A stretch of DNA of 64,000 nucleotides. Source: Nocardioides panzhihuensis (GTDB lineage: Bacteria; Actinomycetota; Actinomycetes; Propionibacteriales; Nocardioidaceae). The stretch lies in contig NZ_JACBZR010000001.1 in the NCBI RefSeq assembly GCF_013408335.1, positions 3,387,501 through 3,451,500 on the forward strand, given 5' to 3'. Positions 4,830-35,481 of this stretch are shown here, in pieces; positions within the stretch are counted from its first letter, which is position 1, and the number at the start of each line of letters is the position of its first letter. The translations under genes were made by a program, and so were the position numbers. The notes beneath the pieces were generated by a model. The model ran no database searches and was not told the origin of the DNA. It saw only the letters and a list, made by a program, of their open reading frames with translations.

Positions 4830-5050
4830 GAGGCCCCTCGGTCCGGCAATGCCTCGAGGGTATCACCACGGCGGAAATAGGTCTTGGACGTGCGCTCAAG
4901 GCCGGTGTCATGGTTTACGTGGCCGAGAGATATCGGTCCAAGAATTCGGGATCGGAACCTGACAGCAGTGCCCATATCAGAATTAGCACATCAAAGAATT
5001 GGGCCTCCTCCTTTCCTGTTTCGGAAATTCATCAAACCAAAGGAATGACC
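4830..5050. promoter_or_regulatory. Divergent LysR / oxidoreductase control region
   Basis: A 221-bp gap between divergent genes. Its right half (about 4970-5040) is clearly richer in A+T than the rest of the window (for example AGAATTAGCACATCAAAGAATT), as expected for promoter and regulator-binding DNA. A weak 5-bp inverted pair GCCCA/TGGGC brackets this AT-rich stretch. AAAGGA lies 6 bases before the ATG at 5051. No unambiguous T-N11-A LysR box was assigned. Confidence 0.5.
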
Positions 5051-20827: not shown

Positions 20828-23596
20828 TCACTGGCCCTTCGTGAAGGTCCACGCGCCGGAGCCGATCCGGTACGAGGTGACGCCGTTCTCGGTGCCGAGG
20901 CTCTCCGGGGCGGCCCGGCCGGGGCCGGTGGCCAGGTAGGAGCCTTCGGGGAGGCGTACGACCGCGGTGACGTTGACCGGGACGGTGGCGCGGAGGGAGA
21001 CGCCGTCCTCGCCGCGGGTCCAGTCGGATGCGACCCGGCCCCGCTGCGTCGCGACCGAGCCCTTGGCGTGGGTCAGGCCGGTGGCCGGGACGCTGATCTC
21101 GACCTCGGCCGCTCCCGGGGCGGTGGTGCGGATCCCGAGGACCGACTCGGTGATGTCGAGGATCCCTCGCGAACCCCAGCCGTGGGAGGCACTGTTGGCC
21201 GAGCCGCTCAGCTCCCAGGCCTCGGGGGTGAAGGTGCCACCGCTCGCGAGCCAGCCGGCCCAGCCGTAGTCGTCCTCGTTGGTGAGGAGGTTCAGCACGC
21301 CCTCGCCTGCGTCTGCCTCGGCCAGGGCCTCGAGCAGCACGTGCGCGGTCATCGGGCCCTGCTTCATCCCCTGGGCAGCGAGCCGCCCGCCGAGCGCGGG
21401 GACGTCCTGCTCCGGCGCGACGCCGAAGGTGACGGCGTACGAGGTGGCGTGCTGTCCGGCGTGGGCCGACTGGGTGCCGTCGGCGAGGAGGCCGTCGACG
21501 TAGGTGCCATCGGTCTTGCGCAGCTTCTGGTTCATCCGCGCCGCGAGAGCGTCGGCGTCGGAGCGCAGCGCGGCGACCTCGGCGGCCGGCCGGCCCAGCT
21601 CCTCACCGGCCAGAGCGACCTTGCGCAGGACGTCGACGCCGAGCGCGTTGACCGTGGTCCTGGCGGCGGTGCTCATGTCGTAGCCGAAGCGGCCGTGGGC
21701 GGGCCAGTCGACGATGCCGTAGAGGTACTGGCCGGAGCCGCCGGAAAGGTTGGTGACCAAGCCCTCGGTCGGGCCGCTGGTGGCGATGTGGCGGCGGATG
21801 TAGCCGGCGGTGGCGGTGAGGTTGTCGTAGGTGTCCTCGAGGACGGCCTTGTCGCCGGTCTCGAGGTAGTAGCGCCAGATCCAGTCGGGGACGACCTCGG
21901 TGAAGTCGGGGATGTCGCGCTTGCCGTCGCCGTTGGGGTAGACCGCGTTGTAGCGGCCGGCGTCATTTCCGGTGGTCCAGTAGCGCTCCTGGCTGAGCAG
22001 GAACTCCCGGATCGCCTGACGGGACGCGACGCGCTCGCGCTGGGAGGACATCAGGCCGATCGAGATGTTGGCGGTGTCGTGCAGGAACTGGCCCTGCTCA
22101 CGGGTCGGGGTGTCGACGAAGGTCTCCTGGACCGAGTAGCGCAGCGAGCGGTCCATCAGGTCCCAGACGTCGTCCAGGGTGGCGTCGGAGCTCTCGAACG
22201 TCGCCGCGCCGTCCTTGTCGTAGGCGGAGTGGACGACGGTGGCGGTCACGTCCTCGGCGGTGATCTCCTCACCGGCACCCGGGATCTCGAGGTAGCGGAA
22301 GCCGAGGTGGCCGACGGCCAGATAGTCCTGCTCGCCCGCAGCCTGGGTGTAGGGGAAGGACATGTTGGTGCTCTGCGTCGAGAGGCCGGTGGTCGAGACC
22401 CGGCCGGTGTCGGCGAGCTCGTAGCCGGCCCGGATCATGACCTGCCGTCCGGCCGTGCCGTTCTCGAAGTGCACACCGGGTCGCGCCGGGATGATCGTGC
22501 CGAAGTCGGCGACGGGGGTGCCGTCGATGGCTCGGAGCATGCGCTCGGGGCGGACGACGGTCTCCTCGAGCCTGGTCTGCTGGCCTTCGAGGCGGGTGAA
22601 CGGCGCCACCGGGTGGGCACCGACCACCACCGCACCGGACCACTGGGAGTCGTCATAGCCTCGCTCGGTCCAGTCGCCGATCGCCTGGGCGGCCTGGCCG
22701 TCGAGGTGCTCGATCCACAGGCCCTCGCCGTTGCGGGTGCCGACCATGACGTACGGAGCGCGGCGGACCTTCCAGGAGCCGTCGGTGACGATCGTGGTCG
22801 TCTCGCCGTCGGCGTAGGTGAGGTCGAGCTTCAGGAGTACGCCGGGGATGCCCGCGGCGCGGCCCTGACCGCCGCTGAACCAGTGCAGCTTGACGCCGAG
22901 GGAGAGGGTCTCCCCCGGTGTGATCAGGTCGGTGACGTCCGCGGCCTGGTAGTAGCCCTCGCTCGGGTAGCCGAAGTTGCTCATCCGGTCGGCTTGCTCG
23001 CCGCCGAGATAGAGCTCGGCGGTGTGGCTGGCCGACAGGTAGCTGCGCGCGCTGACGATCTTGCCTGCCGGGACCTCGACCTCCGTGCGTGCCAGGGTCC
23101 ACTCGTCGCGCTCCTGGGCCGGGTTGCCCGCGGTGCCCGGTGGGCGCCGGATCCAGCTGGCGCCGCCCCAGTCGGTGTCGTCGAGACCGGTCTCGAAGGC
23201 GGCACCGGCCGACCATCGCGACGGTGCCTTGCGGCGGTCCCAGGTCTTGACCCGCCAGGTGTAGCGGCTGCCGGGCTCGAGGGTCTCGCCGGCGTAGTCG
23301 ACGTAGGCCTGCTGCGCCGAGGACACCTTCTCGGAGTCCCAGACGAGCTCACCGGCCGCGTCGCGTACCTCGAGCTTGTAGGCGGACTGCACCTCGTTGG
23401 CGTCGCTGTCCTGAGGCAGCCAGCCGAACCGTGGCGTCAGATCCGTGTTGAGCGGGTGGGTGAGGTCGTCGACGGTCAGGCCGGCGGGGGCTGCGGGTGC
23501 GGTGTTCGCGGTCGCCGCCCCGGTCGGGGTCACGGCCGCCGCGAGGCTGGTGACGACGAGGGCGCTGGTGACGACCGCGGCCAAGCGGAGCTTCAT
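20828..23596 (-). CDS. Secreted alpha-L-rhamnosidase, GH78
   Basis: A 922-residue exported enzyme that releases terminal L-rhamnose. The signal peptide is at residues 1-30 (MKLRLAAVVTSALVVTSLAA). An N-terminal beta-sandwich follows (LTVDDLTHPLNTD, PRFGWL, the usual GH78 opening). The (alpha/alpha)6 catalytic domain is from about residue 450, with SVQETFVDTPTREQGQFLHD corresponding to the acidic catalytic segment and WAHGRFGYD further on. The start is set by GGAGG 5 bases before ATG 23596. A LacI-type operator lies 19 bases upstream. It is translationally linked to the GH28 gene. Confidence 0.93.
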   Translation of the reverse strand: MKLRLAAVVTSALVVTSLAAAVTPTGAATANTAPAAPAGLTVDDLTHPLNTDLTPRFGWLPQDSDANEVQSAYKLEVRDAAGELVWDSEKVSSAQQAYVDYAGETLEPGSRYTWRVKTWDRRKAPSRWSAGAAFETGLDDTDWGGASWIRRPPGTAGNPAQERDEWTLARTEVEVPAGKIVSARSYLSASHTAELYLGGEQADRMSNFGYPSEGYYQAADVTDLITPGETLSLGVKLHWFSGGQGRAAGIPGVLLKLDLTYADGETTTIVTDGSWKVRRAPYVMVGTRNGEGLWIEHLDGQAAQAIGDWTERGYDDSQWSGAVVVGAHPVAPFTRLEGQQTRLEETVVRPERMLRAIDGTPVADFGTIIPARPGVHFENGTAGRQVMIRAGYELADTGRVSTTGLSTQSTNMSFPYTQAAGEQDYLAVGHLGFRYLEIPGAGEEITAEDVTATVVHSAYDKDGAATFESSDATLDDVWDLMDRSLRYSVQETFVDTPTREQGQFLHDTANISIGLMSSQRERVASRQAIREFLLSQERYWTTGNDAGRYNAVYPNGDGKRDIPDFTEVVPDWIWRYYLETGDKAVLEDTYDNLTATAGYIRRHIATSGPTEGLVTNLSGGSGQYLYGIVDWPAHGRFGYDMSTAARTTVNALGVDVLRKVALAGEELGRPAAEVAALRSDADALAARMNQKLRKTDGTYVDGLLADGTQSAHAGQHATSYAVTFGVAPEQDVPALGGRLAAQGMKQGPMTAHVLLEALAEADAGEGVLNLLTNEDDYGWAGWLASGGTFTPEAWELSGSANSASHGWGSRGILDITESVLGIRTTAPGAAEVEISVPATGLTHAKGSVATQRGRVASDWTRGEDGVSLRATVPVNVTAVVRLPEGSYLATGPGRAAPESLGTENGVTSYRIGSGAWTFTKGQ

Positions 23597-23614
23597 GGGG
23601 TCCTCCGGAGCGGA

Positions 23615-23627
23615 TTGATACGTTTCA
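23615..23627 (-). promoter_or_regulatory. LacI-type operator upstream of GH78
   Basis: TTGATACGTTTCA differs by one base from the perfect palindrome TGAAACGTTTCA and sits between the GH78 ribosome site and its promoter region. It belongs to the same operator family seen at rhaI, rhaM, lacI and the ABC importer, placing the rhamnosidase in the same regulon. Confidence 0.7.
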
Positions 23628-23703
23628 CTGCTTGTCTGAAGACTATGGCGCTCGTCACACAAGTGGAAGAGTCGGGCGGTGGCCGGATCCGGTCAAGCAC
23701 GCC

Positions 23704-23882
23704 GAGACGTCAGTTTCTGGCGCCGAAGCGTCAGTTCTTGCGTACGAAGAGTCGGTTCTCGAGCGCGAGAGTCGACTTCTGACGGCGGTGTGGGAATTCA
23801 GAAACCGACGTCTCGCGGTCAAGAACTGACTTCTCGGGGTCAGAAACTGACGTCTCGGGGTCAGGAAATGACGTCTCGGGGT
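23704..23882. repeat. Inverted array of 21-bp repeats (array A, 4 + 4 units)
   Basis: Four units read left to right from 23704 (pattern GARRCGTCAGTTYTTG plus a 4-5 base joint) and four units in the opposite orientation end at 23882 (pattern AGAAACTGACGTCTCGGGG). They are separated by about a dozen unrelated bases (GTGTGGGAATT region). The spacing is exactly 21 bp in the right arm and nearly so in the left arm. The two arms are reverse complements, so the array could fold into a large imperfect stem. The lutC stop codon lies within the last unit. The same units recur at 34939-35143. Confidence 0.9.
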
Positions 23883-24478
23883 GGGGTTATCAGGACGTGG
23901 AGGGTGCGGGGGCCGTGGACGCCCTCGACGCGGTCCAGCTCGATGTCGCTGGTCGCTGACGGGCCGCTGATCCAGGTCTGGGGGCGGGAGGGGTCGAGGA
24001 GGGCGATGGCGTCGGGTACGTCGGCGACCACCTGGTCCTCGCGGACGACGCAGATGTGGGTGTCGGGGACCAGCGAGATGGCCCGGCGGCCCTGGTCGGG
24101 GGTGTGGTCGAGGACGATCGTGCCGGTCTCGGCGATGCCGACCCGGGCCTCGGTGACGACCGCCGCGATCAGGTCCAGCCGCGCGGCGGTGAGGGTGCCG
24201 TCGTCGACGATCGCGTCGGGAATGCGGATCGACAGGCCGGGCGGGACGATCACCTGGCCGGTCGGGAGGGCGGCGGCGATCCGGTCCTCGAGATCCTCGG
24301 CCGAGCAGCGTTCGACGACGGCGCGGTAGTCCGCGACCCGCTCGGCGAAGAGGTCGACGAGCTCGGGGTTCGCGACGGGGTGGACCTCCCGCGGAGCGCT
24401 GGTCTCGACAGGATCGACCGTCGAACCGGCCAGCGCTTCGCGGACTCGGGCGAGGATCTCGCTGCGTGCGTCGGTCAT
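23861..24478 (-). CDS. lutC: L-lactate utilisation protein LutC (LUD domain)
   Basis: A 205-residue LUD-domain subunit of the LutABC L-lactate dehydrogenase complex, which oxidises L-lactate to pyruvate. The family's GIAETGTIVLDHTPDQGRR segment is present, as is VPDTHICVVREDQVV near residue 145. Its ATG overlaps the lutB stop (ATGA). The last residues (PPRDVIS) and the stop are encoded by the outer unit of repeat array A, so the tail has probably been reshaped by the repeat. Confidence 0.93.
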   Translation of the reverse strand: MTDARSEILARVREALAGSTVDPVETSAPREVHPVANPELVDLFAERVADYRAVVERCSAEDLEDRIAAALPTGQVIVPPGLSIRIPDAIVDDGTLTAARLDLIAAVVTEARVGIAETGTIVLDHTPDQGRRAISLVPDTHICVVREDQVVADVPDAIALLDPSRPQTWISGPSATSDIELDRVEGVHGPRTLHVLITPPRDVIS

Positions 24479-25911
24479 GCGTCGTCCTTCCGGCCACCAT
24501 CAGTTCGTTGCCACCAGTCCCGGAAGCTCTCCCCCGGCGCGTCGGGCAGGTCGCGGGCGCCGGTCCAGGCGGTGGGGCCGAAGCGGCGTGCGAAGCGCAT
24601 GCCGAGACCGGTGAGACGCTCGAGGGCGGAGAGGCGGCGCGAGCGCTTCAGGACGTACGCCGCCCCCTTCATCGCCATCGCCTCCGGCTTCGGCACGCCA
24701 CCCCGGTGGGCGTCGACGACCTGGGCACGCTGGTCGACCAGCACCGAGGGGATGTCGATGCGTACCGGGCAGACCTCGAAGCAGGCTCCGCACAGCGAGG
24801 AGGCATAGGGCAGCGAGTCGATCTGGTCGTCGTGCCCGACACCCTTCAGCAGCGGGTTGAGGATGGCGCCGATCGGACCCGGGTAGACCGAGCCGTACGC
24901 ATGGCCGCCGGTGCGCTCGTAGACCGGGCAGACGTTGAGGCATGCCGAGCAGCGGATGCAGCGCAGCGCCTGCCGTCCGACCTCGTCGGCGAGCGCACGG
25001 GTGCGGCCGTTGTCTAGGAGCACCACGTGCACCTCCTGGGGGCCGTCGCCCGGGGCGATCCCGCTCCACATCGAGGTGTAGGGGTTCATCCGCTCGCCGG
25101 TCGAGGACCTCGGCAGGAGCCGGAGCATGGGGTCTAGGTCCTCCCAGCGGGCGACGACCTTCTCGATGCCGACCACCGAGACCAATACGTCGGGCAGGGT
25201 CAGGCACATCCGGCCGTTGCCCTCCGACTCGACCACGACGAGGGTGCCGGTCTCGGCCACCGCGAAGTTGGCGCCGGAGACCCCGACCTTGGCGCGCAGG
25301 AACTTCTCGCGCAGGTGCTCCCGGGCGGCAGCCGCGAGGACGGCCGGCTCGTCGGTGAGGTCGTCGGGCGCAGGTCGGCCCGCGGCCCCCATCTTGGAGC
25401 GGAAGATGTCCCGGATCTCGGCTCGGTTGCGGTGGATCGCGGGCACGAGAATGTGCGATGGCAGGTCGTCGCCGAGCTGCACGATCAGCTCGGCCAGGTC
25501 GGTCTCCCAGGCCGCGATGCCCTCCTCGGCCAGCGCCTCGTTGAGGCCGATCTCCTGGGTCACCATCGACTTGACCTTCACGACCTCCGTCGCGGCGTGC
25601 GCCTTCGCGATGCCGGCGACGATCGCGTTGGCCTCGGCGGCATCGCGGGCCCAGTGGACGGTCGCGCCGTTCGCGGTGAGGGTCTCCTCGAGGCGTACGA
25701 GCTGGGTCTCGAGGTCGAGCAGGGCGCGCTCCTTGACCGCGGCGCCGGCCAAGCGCAGCTCCTCCCAGTCGGGGACCTCGGCGACGACCTTGGCCCGCTT
25801 GGCACGGATGGTGCTGGTCGCATGGGCGAGGTTGTGCCGAAGCTGGGAGTCGGCCAGCGCCTCGCGCGCGGCCTCGGGGAAGACCGGCATCCCGACGAAC
25901 GTCCCGGTCAT
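24475..25911 (-). CDS. lutB: L-lactate utilisation protein LutB (iron-sulfur)
   Basis: A 478-residue iron-sulfur subunit of LutABC. The LUD-type N-terminal part (VVVESEGNGRMCLTLPDV, GIEKVVARWEDL) is followed by two ferredoxin-like cysteine clusters, CIRCSACLNVCPVYERTGGH near residue 310 and LCGACFEVCPVRIDIP near 365. The C-terminal DUF3390-like tail ends in SFRDWWQRTD. ATG 25911 overlaps the lutA stop and the gene's own stop overlaps the lutC start, giving tight coupling of all three subunits. Confidence 0.95.
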   Translation of the reverse strand: MTGTFVGMPVFPEAAREALADSQLRHNLAHATSTIRAKRAKVVAEVPDWEELRLAGAAVKERALLDLETQLVRLEETLTANGATVHWARDAAEANAIVAGIAKAHAATEVVKVKSMVTQEIGLNEALAEEGIAAWETDLAELIVQLGDDLPSHILVPAIHRNRAEIRDIFRSKMGAAGRPAPDDLTDEPAVLAAAAREHLREKFLRAKVGVSGANFAVAETGTLVVVESEGNGRMCLTLPDVLVSVVGIEKVVARWEDLDPMLRLLPRSSTGERMNPYTSMWSGIAPGDGPQEVHVVLLDNGRTRALADEVGRQALRCIRCSACLNVCPVYERTGGHAYGSVYPGPIGAILNPLLKGVGHDDQIDSLPYASSLCGACFEVCPVRIDIPSVLVDQRAQVVDAHRGGVPKPEAMAMKGAAYVLKRSRRLSALERLTGLGMRFARRFGPTAWTGARDLPDAPGESFRDWWQRTDGGRKDDA

Positions 25912-26648
25912 CGGGTCACCTCCTCGGTCGAGGCGAGGATCTCGGCGAGGTGGACGGTGCGTACGCCCGAGCGCTGCCGGGAGAGCACGCCGCCGATGTG
26001 GGTGAGGCAGGAGTTGTCGCCGGCGACCACGATCTCGGCTCCGGTCCCCCGGATGTGACGGGCCTTGTCGGCCCCCATCGCGATCGAGGTGTCGGCGTTC
26101 TTGACCGCGAACGTGCCGCCGAAGCCGCAGCACTCATCGGCGCCGGGCAGGCCGACCAGCCGAATCCCCCTGACCGCCTCCAGCAGTCGCTGGGGCCGGT
26201 CCCCCACGCCCAGCATCCGCAGCGAGTGGCAGGTCGGGTGGTAGGTGACCCGGTGCGGGTAGTAGGCGCCGACGTCCGTCACGCCGAGCACGTCGACGAG
26301 GAACTCGGAGAGCTCGTAGACCTTCGGGGCGATCTCCGCGACGGCCTCTTGGAGGGCCTCGTCGCCGGAGCGGACAGCCACGATCGAGTGCTGGTGGCGT
26401 GCCGACCCGGCGCAGGATCCGGACGGGGTGACGACGGCGTCATAGCCGGCGAAGGCGTCCACGAACGTACGCAGCACTGGGACCGCCTCGTCCAGATAGC
26501 CGGTGTTGACCATCGGCTGCCCACAGCACGTCTGCGCCTGCGGGAACTCGACCTCGACGCCGAGCCGGCGCAGGAGGCGTACGACGGCCTGACCCGTGCT
26601 CGGGTAGAGCGCGTCGTTGATGCACGTGACCATCAGCGCGACTCGCAT
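25908..26648 (-). CDS. lutA: L-lactate utilisation protein LutA (cysteine-rich CCG domains)
   Basis: A 246-residue subunit of LutABC with two cysteine-rich CCG repeats: QAQTCCGQPMVNTGYLDEA near residue 50 and GADECCGFGGTFAVKN near residue 175. Both halves resemble the heterodisulfide reductase and glycolate oxidase iron-sulfur subunits. It is the first gene of lutABC. The 67-base gap from the small HTH gene contains a direct repeat CAGATC-N4-CAGATC-like pattern (near 26706-26724) that could bind a regulator. In context it would oxidise L-lactate formed from rhamnose-derived lactaldehyde. Confidence 0.95.
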   Translation of the reverse strand: MRVALMVTCINDALYPSTGQAVVRLLRRLGVEVEFPQAQTCCGQPMVNTGYLDEAVPVLRTFVDAFAGYDAVVTPSGSCAGSARHQHSIVAVRSGDEALQEAVAEIAPKVYELSEFLVDVLGVTDVGAYYPHRVTYHPTCHSLRMLGVGDRPQRLLEAVRGIRLVGLPGADECCGFGGTFAVKNADTSIAMGADKARHIRGTGAEIVVAGDNSCLTHIGGVLSRQRSGVRTVHLAEILASTEEVTR

Positions 26649-26715
26649 CCGGCATGCCCCCTTCGTCTTTTCTTGCCCATCAAATCAGTTCAGCACAGCT
26701 CCGGATCAGATCGGT

Positions 26716-26943
26716 TCAGATCAGCCCGGTGCGTACGGCCCTCACGACCGCTTCCACACTCGTCCCCGCGCCCAGCGAGTCGGCGGCCGCCCGCAGCCGG
26801 CGCCGTACGGTGCGCTCGGAGATACCCAGCTCACGCGCGATCCGCTCGATCGTGTAGCCCCGGGCGAACAGTGCCAGCACCTCCACCTCGTCCGACGGAA
26901 GGTCGGTCGAGGCGGACGGTCGTGCATCGCCCGAGGCTGCCAC
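26716..26943 (-). CDS. Small stand-alone LuxR-type HTH protein
   Basis: A 75-residue protein that is almost only a LuxR/GerE helix-turn-helix: LPSDEVEVLALFARGYTIERIARELGISER followed by TVRRRLRAAADSLG. There is no receiver or ligand-binding domain. The GTG start has GGAG 6 bases before it. It lies directly upstream of lutABC (67 bases) and downstream of the GH106 gene (77 bases) on the same strand. A local role in lactate or rhamnose control is plausible but not shown. It could also be a truncated remnant of a larger regulator. Confidence 0.75.
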   Translation of the reverse strand: MAASGDARPSASTDLPSDEVEVLALFARGYTIERIARELGISERTVRRRLRAAADSLGAGTSVEAVVRAVRTGLI

Positions 26944-34900: not shown

Positions 34901-34938
34901 GAGGAGCGTGGAGTTCGTTGCGTTTCAGCACTCCCCGC

Positions 34939-35143
34939 GAGACGTCAGCTTCTGACCGCGAGAGGTCAGTTCTTGGCCACGAGACGTCAGTTCCTGGCCG
35001 CGGTCCCATTCCGCGTACAGGAATCGACGTCTCGCACTCAGAAACTGACTTTTCGGCGTCAAGAACTGACCCCTCGGGGTCGAGAACTGACTCCTCGGGG
35101 TCGAGAACTGACTCCTCGGGGTCGAGAACTGACGCTTCGGGGT
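34939..35143. repeat. Inverted array of 21-bp repeats (array B, 3 + 6 units)
   Basis: Three left-oriented units (34939-35001, GAGACGTCAGTTCYTGGCC type) face six right-oriented units (35018-35143, AGAACTGACTCCTCGGGG type) across a 16-base spacer. The period is exactly 21 bp throughout. Units at 35081 and 35102 are identical. With the rhaI promoter and operator, this array fills the 319-bp gap 34824-35142. It reaches the last base of the rhaM stop codon. It is the same family as array A at 23704-23882. No protein gene was assigned inside it, although its 21-bp phase keeps several frames open. Confidence 0.92.
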
Positions 35144-35481
35144 CAGGGGCGACCTAGCTGGTCCTCGAGGTGGAAGACCTCCTCGAGGCGCAGGAAGCCC
35201 TCGTCGGGCGCGATACCGTCGAGATCCTCGAAGAACTCCGCCATCTCCGCCTGCCAGCGGGCATTGACCTCGGTCGCCGCCATCCCAGCCTGGGCGGCCT
35301 CGATGGAGGGAGTCTCGACATAGCCGATGAGCACCCCGTCGGGTCGGAGGAACAGCGAGTAGTTGTGCCACCCGGTCTCCGCGAGCGCCCGCAGCATGTC
35401 GGGCCAGACGGCGGCATGACGCTGCTTGTACTCCTCGATGCGCTCGACCTTGACCTGCAGCTGAAAGCAGACGCGCTCCAT
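35143..35481 (-). CDS. rhaM: L-rhamnose mutarotase
   Basis: A 112-residue cytoplasmic enzyme that interconverts alpha and beta rhamnopyranose, feeding the isomerase. The family features are FQLQVKVERIEEYKQRHAAVWPDM with the catalytic His, the HNYSLFLRPDG strand and the closing LEEVFHLE. GGAGG lies 5 bases before ATG 35481. The last codons and stop abut repeat array B. It is transcribed divergently from lacI, with an imperfect operator between the promoter and the start. Confidence 0.95.
   Translation of the reverse strand: MERVCFQLQVKVERIEEYKQRHAAVWPDMLRALAETGWHNYSLFLRPDGVLIGYVETPSIEAAQAGMAATEVNARWQAEMAEFFEDLDGIAPDEGFLRLEEVFHLEDQLGRP

Follow-up and report, generated by a model that had tools for sequence, protein, structure and literature searches.

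The 64,000-nt window of Nocardioides panzhihuensis analysed here, part of a genome of 6.31 Mb (G000), carries at the 3' end of a lutC-like gene an inverted array of 21-bp units, array A, whose two arms are inverted repeats of each other. In our reading, to which we give a probability of about 0.7, array A belongs to a dispersed, vertically kept family of such arrays that is matched with one nuclease-like gene; this estimate includes the enzyme-driven working proposed below. A preliminary description had located the array correctly, as Tandem Repeats Finder (TRF) returns 21-bp units repeated 4.0 times at 23798-23882 (score 121) and 2.5 times at 23708-23759. The same description had four units facing four, which is accurate for the right arm, while the left arm has three good units and a degenerate fourth one at about 23763-23782, recognised by eye.

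Chance is excluded as the origin of array A because the window, with arrays A and B, holds 10 unit matches compared with 0.01 expected from shuffles. The lutC-like stop codon, TGA at 23861-23863, lies inside the outermost right unit (23861-23881) as had been described, and this unit codes for the end of the gene. The region 23400-24200 gave no Rfam model match at E≤1, in agreement with the earlier statement that no IS end, CRISPR repeat or known regulatory box was recognised. The features are listed in Table 1.

Table 1. Arrays, adjoining genes and the enclosed enzyme gene (window positions, except for the last row)
Feature	Position	Strand	Remarks
Array A, left arm	23700..23762	-	three 21-bp units; profile scores 31.3, 24.2, 15.3; TRF
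Array A, centre	23763..23797		degenerate unit and spacer, flanked by the scored arms
Array A, right arm	23798..23881	+	four 21-bp units; profile scores 29.8, 33.3, 33.6, 28.5; TRF
lutC-like gene (LUD domain)	23861..24478	-	array sequence supplies the final codons and the stop
alpha-L-rhamnosidase gene	20828..23596	-	opposite side of array A; gene start 103 bp away from the array
Array B, left arm	34935..34997	-	three units
Array B, right arm	35017..35142	+	six units; end flush with the rhaM-like stop
L-rhamnose mutarotase (rhaM-like) gene	35143..35481	-	stop abuts array B
Enzyme copy 1 gene	G000:C1:2632444-2633364		306 aa; between two arms of TCARRAAYTGACNYCTCGGSG units

A dispersed family of 21-bp units

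The unit of this first family, TCARRAAYTGACNYCTCGGSG, was described by a profile built over 40 fetched genome stretches and the window, in which G10-A11-C12 and T16-C17-G18 are nearly invariant. Its core AACTGACNTCTCG, searched with at most one mismatch and thereby also picking up members of a second unit family (see below), has 113 matches in the genome compared with 4 for the reversed control. A search for the unit consensus, as the preliminary description had proposed, finds at least 25 clusters here with a minimum of two units each, as well as arrays in relatives; this number is a lower bound, as clusters were counted only in fetched stretches and among the matches listed. They comprise 17 two-armed clusters and four one-armed ones; the other four belong to two split arrays, each arm of which counts as a cluster. 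In the two split arrays, distances of about 650 and 1080 bp separate the arms, with a gene in between. At L034 (4864-5665; also L154 and L161), a second case of a gene within an array, the arms flank a response regulator gene with a LuxR-type domain, one arm sitting between this gene and the adjoining sensor-kinase-like gene; the matching clusters in G113 and G110 have a single arm above the threshold. Differences in unit number between relatives are seen in array B, with 3+6 units here, 3+5 in G110 and 3+4 in G113, the larger count being on the rhaM side. A local tandem duplication without wider meaning, which had been kept as an option in case no further copies existed, is rejected by the 113 core matches and by orthologous arrays in three relatives, and is left with next to no probability even though adjacent units of one arm are more alike than other pairs.

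This likeness of neighbours emerged from a comparison of 55 two-armed arrays whose spacers are shorter than 60 bp, in which differences were counted over the 21 unit positions. Nested left and right units show 6.32 differences, as against 6.10 when arms are swapped between arrays (the observed value is not exceeded in 1874 of 2000 permutations) and 6.41 when the unit order is shuffled inside an array (not exceeded in 394 of 2000), whereas adjacent units of one arm differ at only 5.36. Covariation between the arms is thus absent from these 55 arrays, and therefore the hairpin is not what is kept. As the arms do not covary and neighbouring units are closest, the arms grow by tandem duplication with the units being held individually, and the complementarity of the arms is a by-product. 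The strong folding of array A (z score -9.8) follows from the inverted layout of its arms, so that of the RNA hairpin suggested earlier the fold itself stands but not its role as the conserved feature, the arms being no more complementary within arrays than across them. The lengths of the centre spacers favour multiples of 10.5 bp (R 0.51, p about 5e-7; a period of 10 or 11 fits almost as well), which would be the case if the two arms faced the same side of the helix. Of the two roles considered in the preliminary description, a phased protein-binding array is therefore the better reading, with units that are individually constrained and spacers near multiples of the helical repeat.

The arrays could also be bidirectional transcription terminators or 3'-end hairpins of mRNAs that were multiplied for their RNA structure, as is suggested by their position directly 3' of stop codons, by the folding of array A and by locus L070a, where G071 and G051 have, by eye, a GC-rich hairpin in the array's place. 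We consider this very improbable given the lack of covariation, the two arrays whose arms lie far apart around a gene and the lack of a U-tract intrinsic terminator (a GC-rich hairpin followed by a U run) within 23500-24100, the array A region to which that search applied. It also leaves the pairing with a nuclease-like gene unexplained.

Nuclease-like genes between array arms

The enzyme enclosed by first-family units (copy 1) combines an AbiEi-like N-terminal part, with the two-domain fold of AbiEi antitoxins, and a part with a putative Vsr/EDxHD-endonuclease-like fold; its Pfam matches are MTES_1575, DUF559 and AbiEi_4. No Y1 transposase model matches at E≤0.1 in four homologues of the enzyme. 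Six genes adjoining the enzyme gene were checked in a total of three genomes (RNase H/GNAT, LacI, RelA/SpoT, DUF349, YaaA and RNase H/phosphatase), and no AbiEii nucleotidyltransferase was found among them. A second copy in the same genome, 54% identical to the first, is enclosed by a different unit, CGACGGGAGTGACGTCTCGGC, which is dispersed as well, with 141 close matches in the genome and 31 clusters of at least three units found by script in the fetched stretches; one of these (L050) was also counted as first-family and two are the arms that enclose copy 2.

Of 147 genomes of the genus, 131 contain homologues of the enzyme (E≤1e-10), the most distant of those listed being about 34% identical. 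The flank test covered three families of the order with 74 homologues (53 loci obtained by searches and 20 distant ones picked down the hit list, plus two found via arrays, less one that was too short). Inverted flanking arms were found at 67 of the 74, compared with 4 of 250 control genes of similar length that scored as high. Each locus tends to have a unit of its own, and the similarity of the units follows the identity of the enzymes with r 0.53, a value reached by none of 2000 permutations (largest 0.15), shared ancestry not being corrected for. The nuclease gene lies in two overlapping pieces in different frames at G139:C1:2842010-2842914 and G461:C20:20114-20961, which are probably decaying copies.

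One enzyme is paired with one unit across genomes as well. The first unit has 50 matches in G000, 104 in G113 and 10 in G011, with an enzyme at least 80% identical listed in all three; 143 of the 147 genomes have 0-3 matches each. In a comparison of 30 genomes, the second unit has 141 matches here and 156, 126, 79, 88, 34 and 34 in six relatives, with at most 2 in each of the other 23. Copy 2 is 97, 93, 93 and 74% identical in four of these relatives, while the remaining two, G113 and G011, have further enzyme matches. Units taken from enzyme flanks alone predicted dispersed repeats in four other genomes: the unit flanking the enzymes of G091 and G093 has 78 and 49 matches there and at most 2 in each other genome among 31 (reversed control 0-4 per genome), and the unit from G396 and G429, which belong to another family, has 80 and 38 matches there and at most 1 in each other genome among 24.

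These numbers bear on the idea that the nuclease gene is a parasite resembling a homing endonuclease, which inserts into pre-existing target arrays that spread for some other reason. This appears improbable, as the unit sequence tracks the enzyme sequence, the unit families are abundant in genomes with the matching enzyme and in their close relatives, and the many intact target sites would be cut.

Gene ends as array sites

Placement was studied for 76 array clusters in four related genomes, with genes called by our own codon-usage caller and with 411 array-free gaps of at least 30 bp at the same loci as control. The clusters are located in 36 co-directional, 32 convergent and 2 divergent gaps, with 6 predicted inside genes, whereas the array-free gaps comprise 223 co-directional, 55 convergent and 133 divergent ones. 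Arrays are therefore enriched in convergent gaps (32/70 vs 55/411, p 4e-9) and depleted in divergent ones (2/70 vs 133/411, p 1e-8). Outside the 6 clusters predicted inside genes, array edges that face a gene 3' end are found at -45 to +20 bp of the stop codon in 92 of 100 cases (median 1), while this holds for 7 of 40 edges facing a gene start (median 74.5). Overlaps between arrays and stop codons are quantised at -31, -21, -10/-11 and 0, since a TGA forms part of the unit. In another family of the order, seven of eight inspected arrays from the G396 and G429 loci are at most 14 bp away from a stop codon and the eighth is 34 bp away.

Similar array-encoded protein tails, ending in AETSVSDAE or PREVSS, are found at L139, L140, L158, L133, L156 and other loci, and the arrays rewrite predicted protein C-termini. 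At L038 (5165-5279) and L134 (3454-3610), orthologous arrays are predicted within the coding region in both species; as 21 bp correspond to seven codons, in-frame growth of these arrays is possible.

The array behind lutC is also present in G110, G011 and G113, in two of which the gene beyond the array differs, but not in G051 and G071, which have about 18 bp where the genomes with the array have 195. The LutC-like proteins with the array end in VLITPPRDVIS and related tails (VLITHPE in G011); those of the two relatives without it end in VLLVAGER and VLVVAREQ, and those of five outgroups in V(I/V)(I/V)V with various tails. Judging from these tails, the gene end has been replaced rather than receiving a clean insertion, which bears out the preliminary description. 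As G071 branches first in the LutC tree (the order of G051 and G011 being left open) and the array is absent from both G051 and G071, the gain of array A probably took place within this group.

Eleven further sites were compared by eye with G071 and/or G051, giving 20 comparisons. There is no array in 11 of them (L047, L056 and L070a in both relatives; L054, L059, L062 and L070b in G071; array B in G051) and a decayed array in 2 (L054 and L062 in G051). At the L059 site (4965-5006), the counterpart of the array at this stop codon in G051 (L295) is a tandem repeat of about five copies whose 13-bp unit, TGATCAGTCGGGC, is unrelated. The remaining 6 comparisons, at 3 of the 11 gene ends, show sites re-occupied by arrays of another family: the second family in both relatives at L068, the third in both at L064, and the third in G071 and the second in G051 at L057. 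The G071 enzyme lies, by eye, between the same neighbours as copy 2 with third-family units alongside. From this and the re-occupied ends it would seem that a gene end can remain an array site when enzyme and unit change together.

A role for the host at gene ends, for instance in the supercoiling of DNA between converging genes, is the main rival. In this case the arrays would be immobile, selected binding stations for the nuclease-like protein, which would be a chromosome or supercoiling factor that, for example, nicks or bridges DNA behind genes and between converging transcription units. This agrees with the bias towards convergent gaps and the near avoidance of divergent ones, with array places common to several species, with units that are singly constrained and helically phased, and with different-family arrays at some gene ends in different species. 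It is nevertheless unlikely, as relatives range from near 0 to more than 100 unit matches, many sites are simply empty in relatives and the unit families diverge fast. Such a role may coexist with spread by the enzyme.

A 26-bp direct repeat of two copies (26679-26729) was also seen in the window, immediately upstream of the gene at 25908-26648.

A proposed mode of working and its relation to known systems

To account for a family of arrays matched with one enzyme, we infer that the enzyme binds its units, cuts DNA and propagates or maintains the arrays. The AbiEi-like winged-helix part would bind the 21-bp units, several molecules lying abreast on one face of the DNA, the Vsr/EDxHD-like domain would nick or cut DNA at or near gene ends, and repair would then copy array sequence into sites just 3' of stop codons or keep it there. 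Each enzyme would keep one unit family, and a change of specificity would change the arrays at gene ends too. Nicking or cutting of DNA is established for domains of the Vsr type. Spread through breaks made close to gene ends and mended from an array copy would agree with junctions that lack a visible target-site duplication and have lost a few codons. By analogy with known AbiEi proteins, which bind 23-bp inverted repeats (PMC7319586), the predicted binding of 21-bp units by the N-terminal part is reasonable.

Several observations weigh against this reading. Foldseek's own E-value for the match with I-Bth0305I is only 0.42. Seven of the 74 homologues failed the flank test, including L237 (52% identity) and L244 (44%), and the tests are not independent since homologues and genomes are related. 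G001 has an 81% identical copy 2 orthologue but only 2 second-unit matches, its own flank unit being different; G071, with a 74% identical enzyme, has 34 second-unit matches although its own enzyme is flanked by the third unit; and in G110, a draft assembly, 15 first-unit matches are present while a first-type enzyme was not found. Movement of arrays is rare, because for 20 of the 25 clusters here a fetched relative has an array next to a matching flank. No target-site duplication is visible by eye at the empty sites of lutC and L047. The 6 of 76 arrays predicted inside genes and the hairpins at L070a, which the terminator reading predicts, are further points of this kind.

The closest known arrangement is the REPIN-RAYT system or REPtron, in which short intergenic repeats are dispersed, often as inverted pairs (PMC3116915, PMC8049555, PMC8266576). 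Typically, one enzyme gene there belongs to each repeat family, is flanked by the repeats and matches the family, with copies dispersed in the genome as is found here; the systems are retained over long times, and repeats are commoner where the enzyme is present. By contrast, the enzyme there is a HUH/Y1 tyrosine transposase (TnpA-REP, of the IS200/IS605 kind), here an AbiEi-like and Vsr-like protein; the unit there is a 20-50-nt imperfect palindrome tagged GTAG, which TCARRAAYTGACNYCTCGGSG lacks on either strand; and a single hairpin is replaced here by 21-bp units in tandem arms that do not covary, though array A can fold. In addition, the arrays abut stop codons. The proposed system would work like a REPtron but is not a member because enzyme, tag and hairpin are all different.

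With EDxHD homing endonucleases like I-Bth0305I and with Vsr, the differences are that no intron or intein is seen here, that many intact repeat arrays exist elsewhere in the genome and that the enzyme begins with an AbiEi-like domain. The two-domain fold is shared with the AbiEi antitoxins of type IV toxin-antitoxin systems, but here it is fused to a nuclease-like domain, and no AbiEii is among the six adjoining genes checked in three genomes. Repetitive extragenic palindromes (REPs) tagged with CGTC are likewise dispersed palindromic repeats, for which no dedicated transposase is reported (PMC3733652); they differ in having stems of 8-9 bp, a loop of 4-5 nt, a CGTC end tag and a distribution mostly in alpha-Proteobacteria. 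The flanks of distant nuclease homologues (L254, L255, L256, L258 and L261) have repeats with a common GGCGTGT(C/T), which are longer and closer to classical REP doublets. A link between these and the CGTC-tagged REPs is possible.

A literature search for such a pairing of enzyme and repeats found no paper, and the AbiEi-Vsr enzymes with their repeats look like a so far undescribed kind of bacterial system. To our knowledge, HUH transposases are the class of enzymes by which populations of short palindromic repeats are known to be kept in bacterial genomes. With somewhat better than even odds, the present arrays represent another kind of repeat population with a cognate enzyme, the second in bacteria and of independent origin, in which AbiEi-Vsr fusions each own fast-diverging palindromic arrays at gene ends and switches of specificity rewrite these arrays. 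Such enzymes might also be the ones still missing for other dispersed repeats that have been described without any. If this is true, the same architecture with an unrelated enzyme would make it testable whether repeat populations are selfish, domesticated or useful, the successive changes of specificity in the pairing would be a natural experiment in protein-DNA coevolution, and proteins currently named just DUF559 or AbiEi-like would gain hints of their function.
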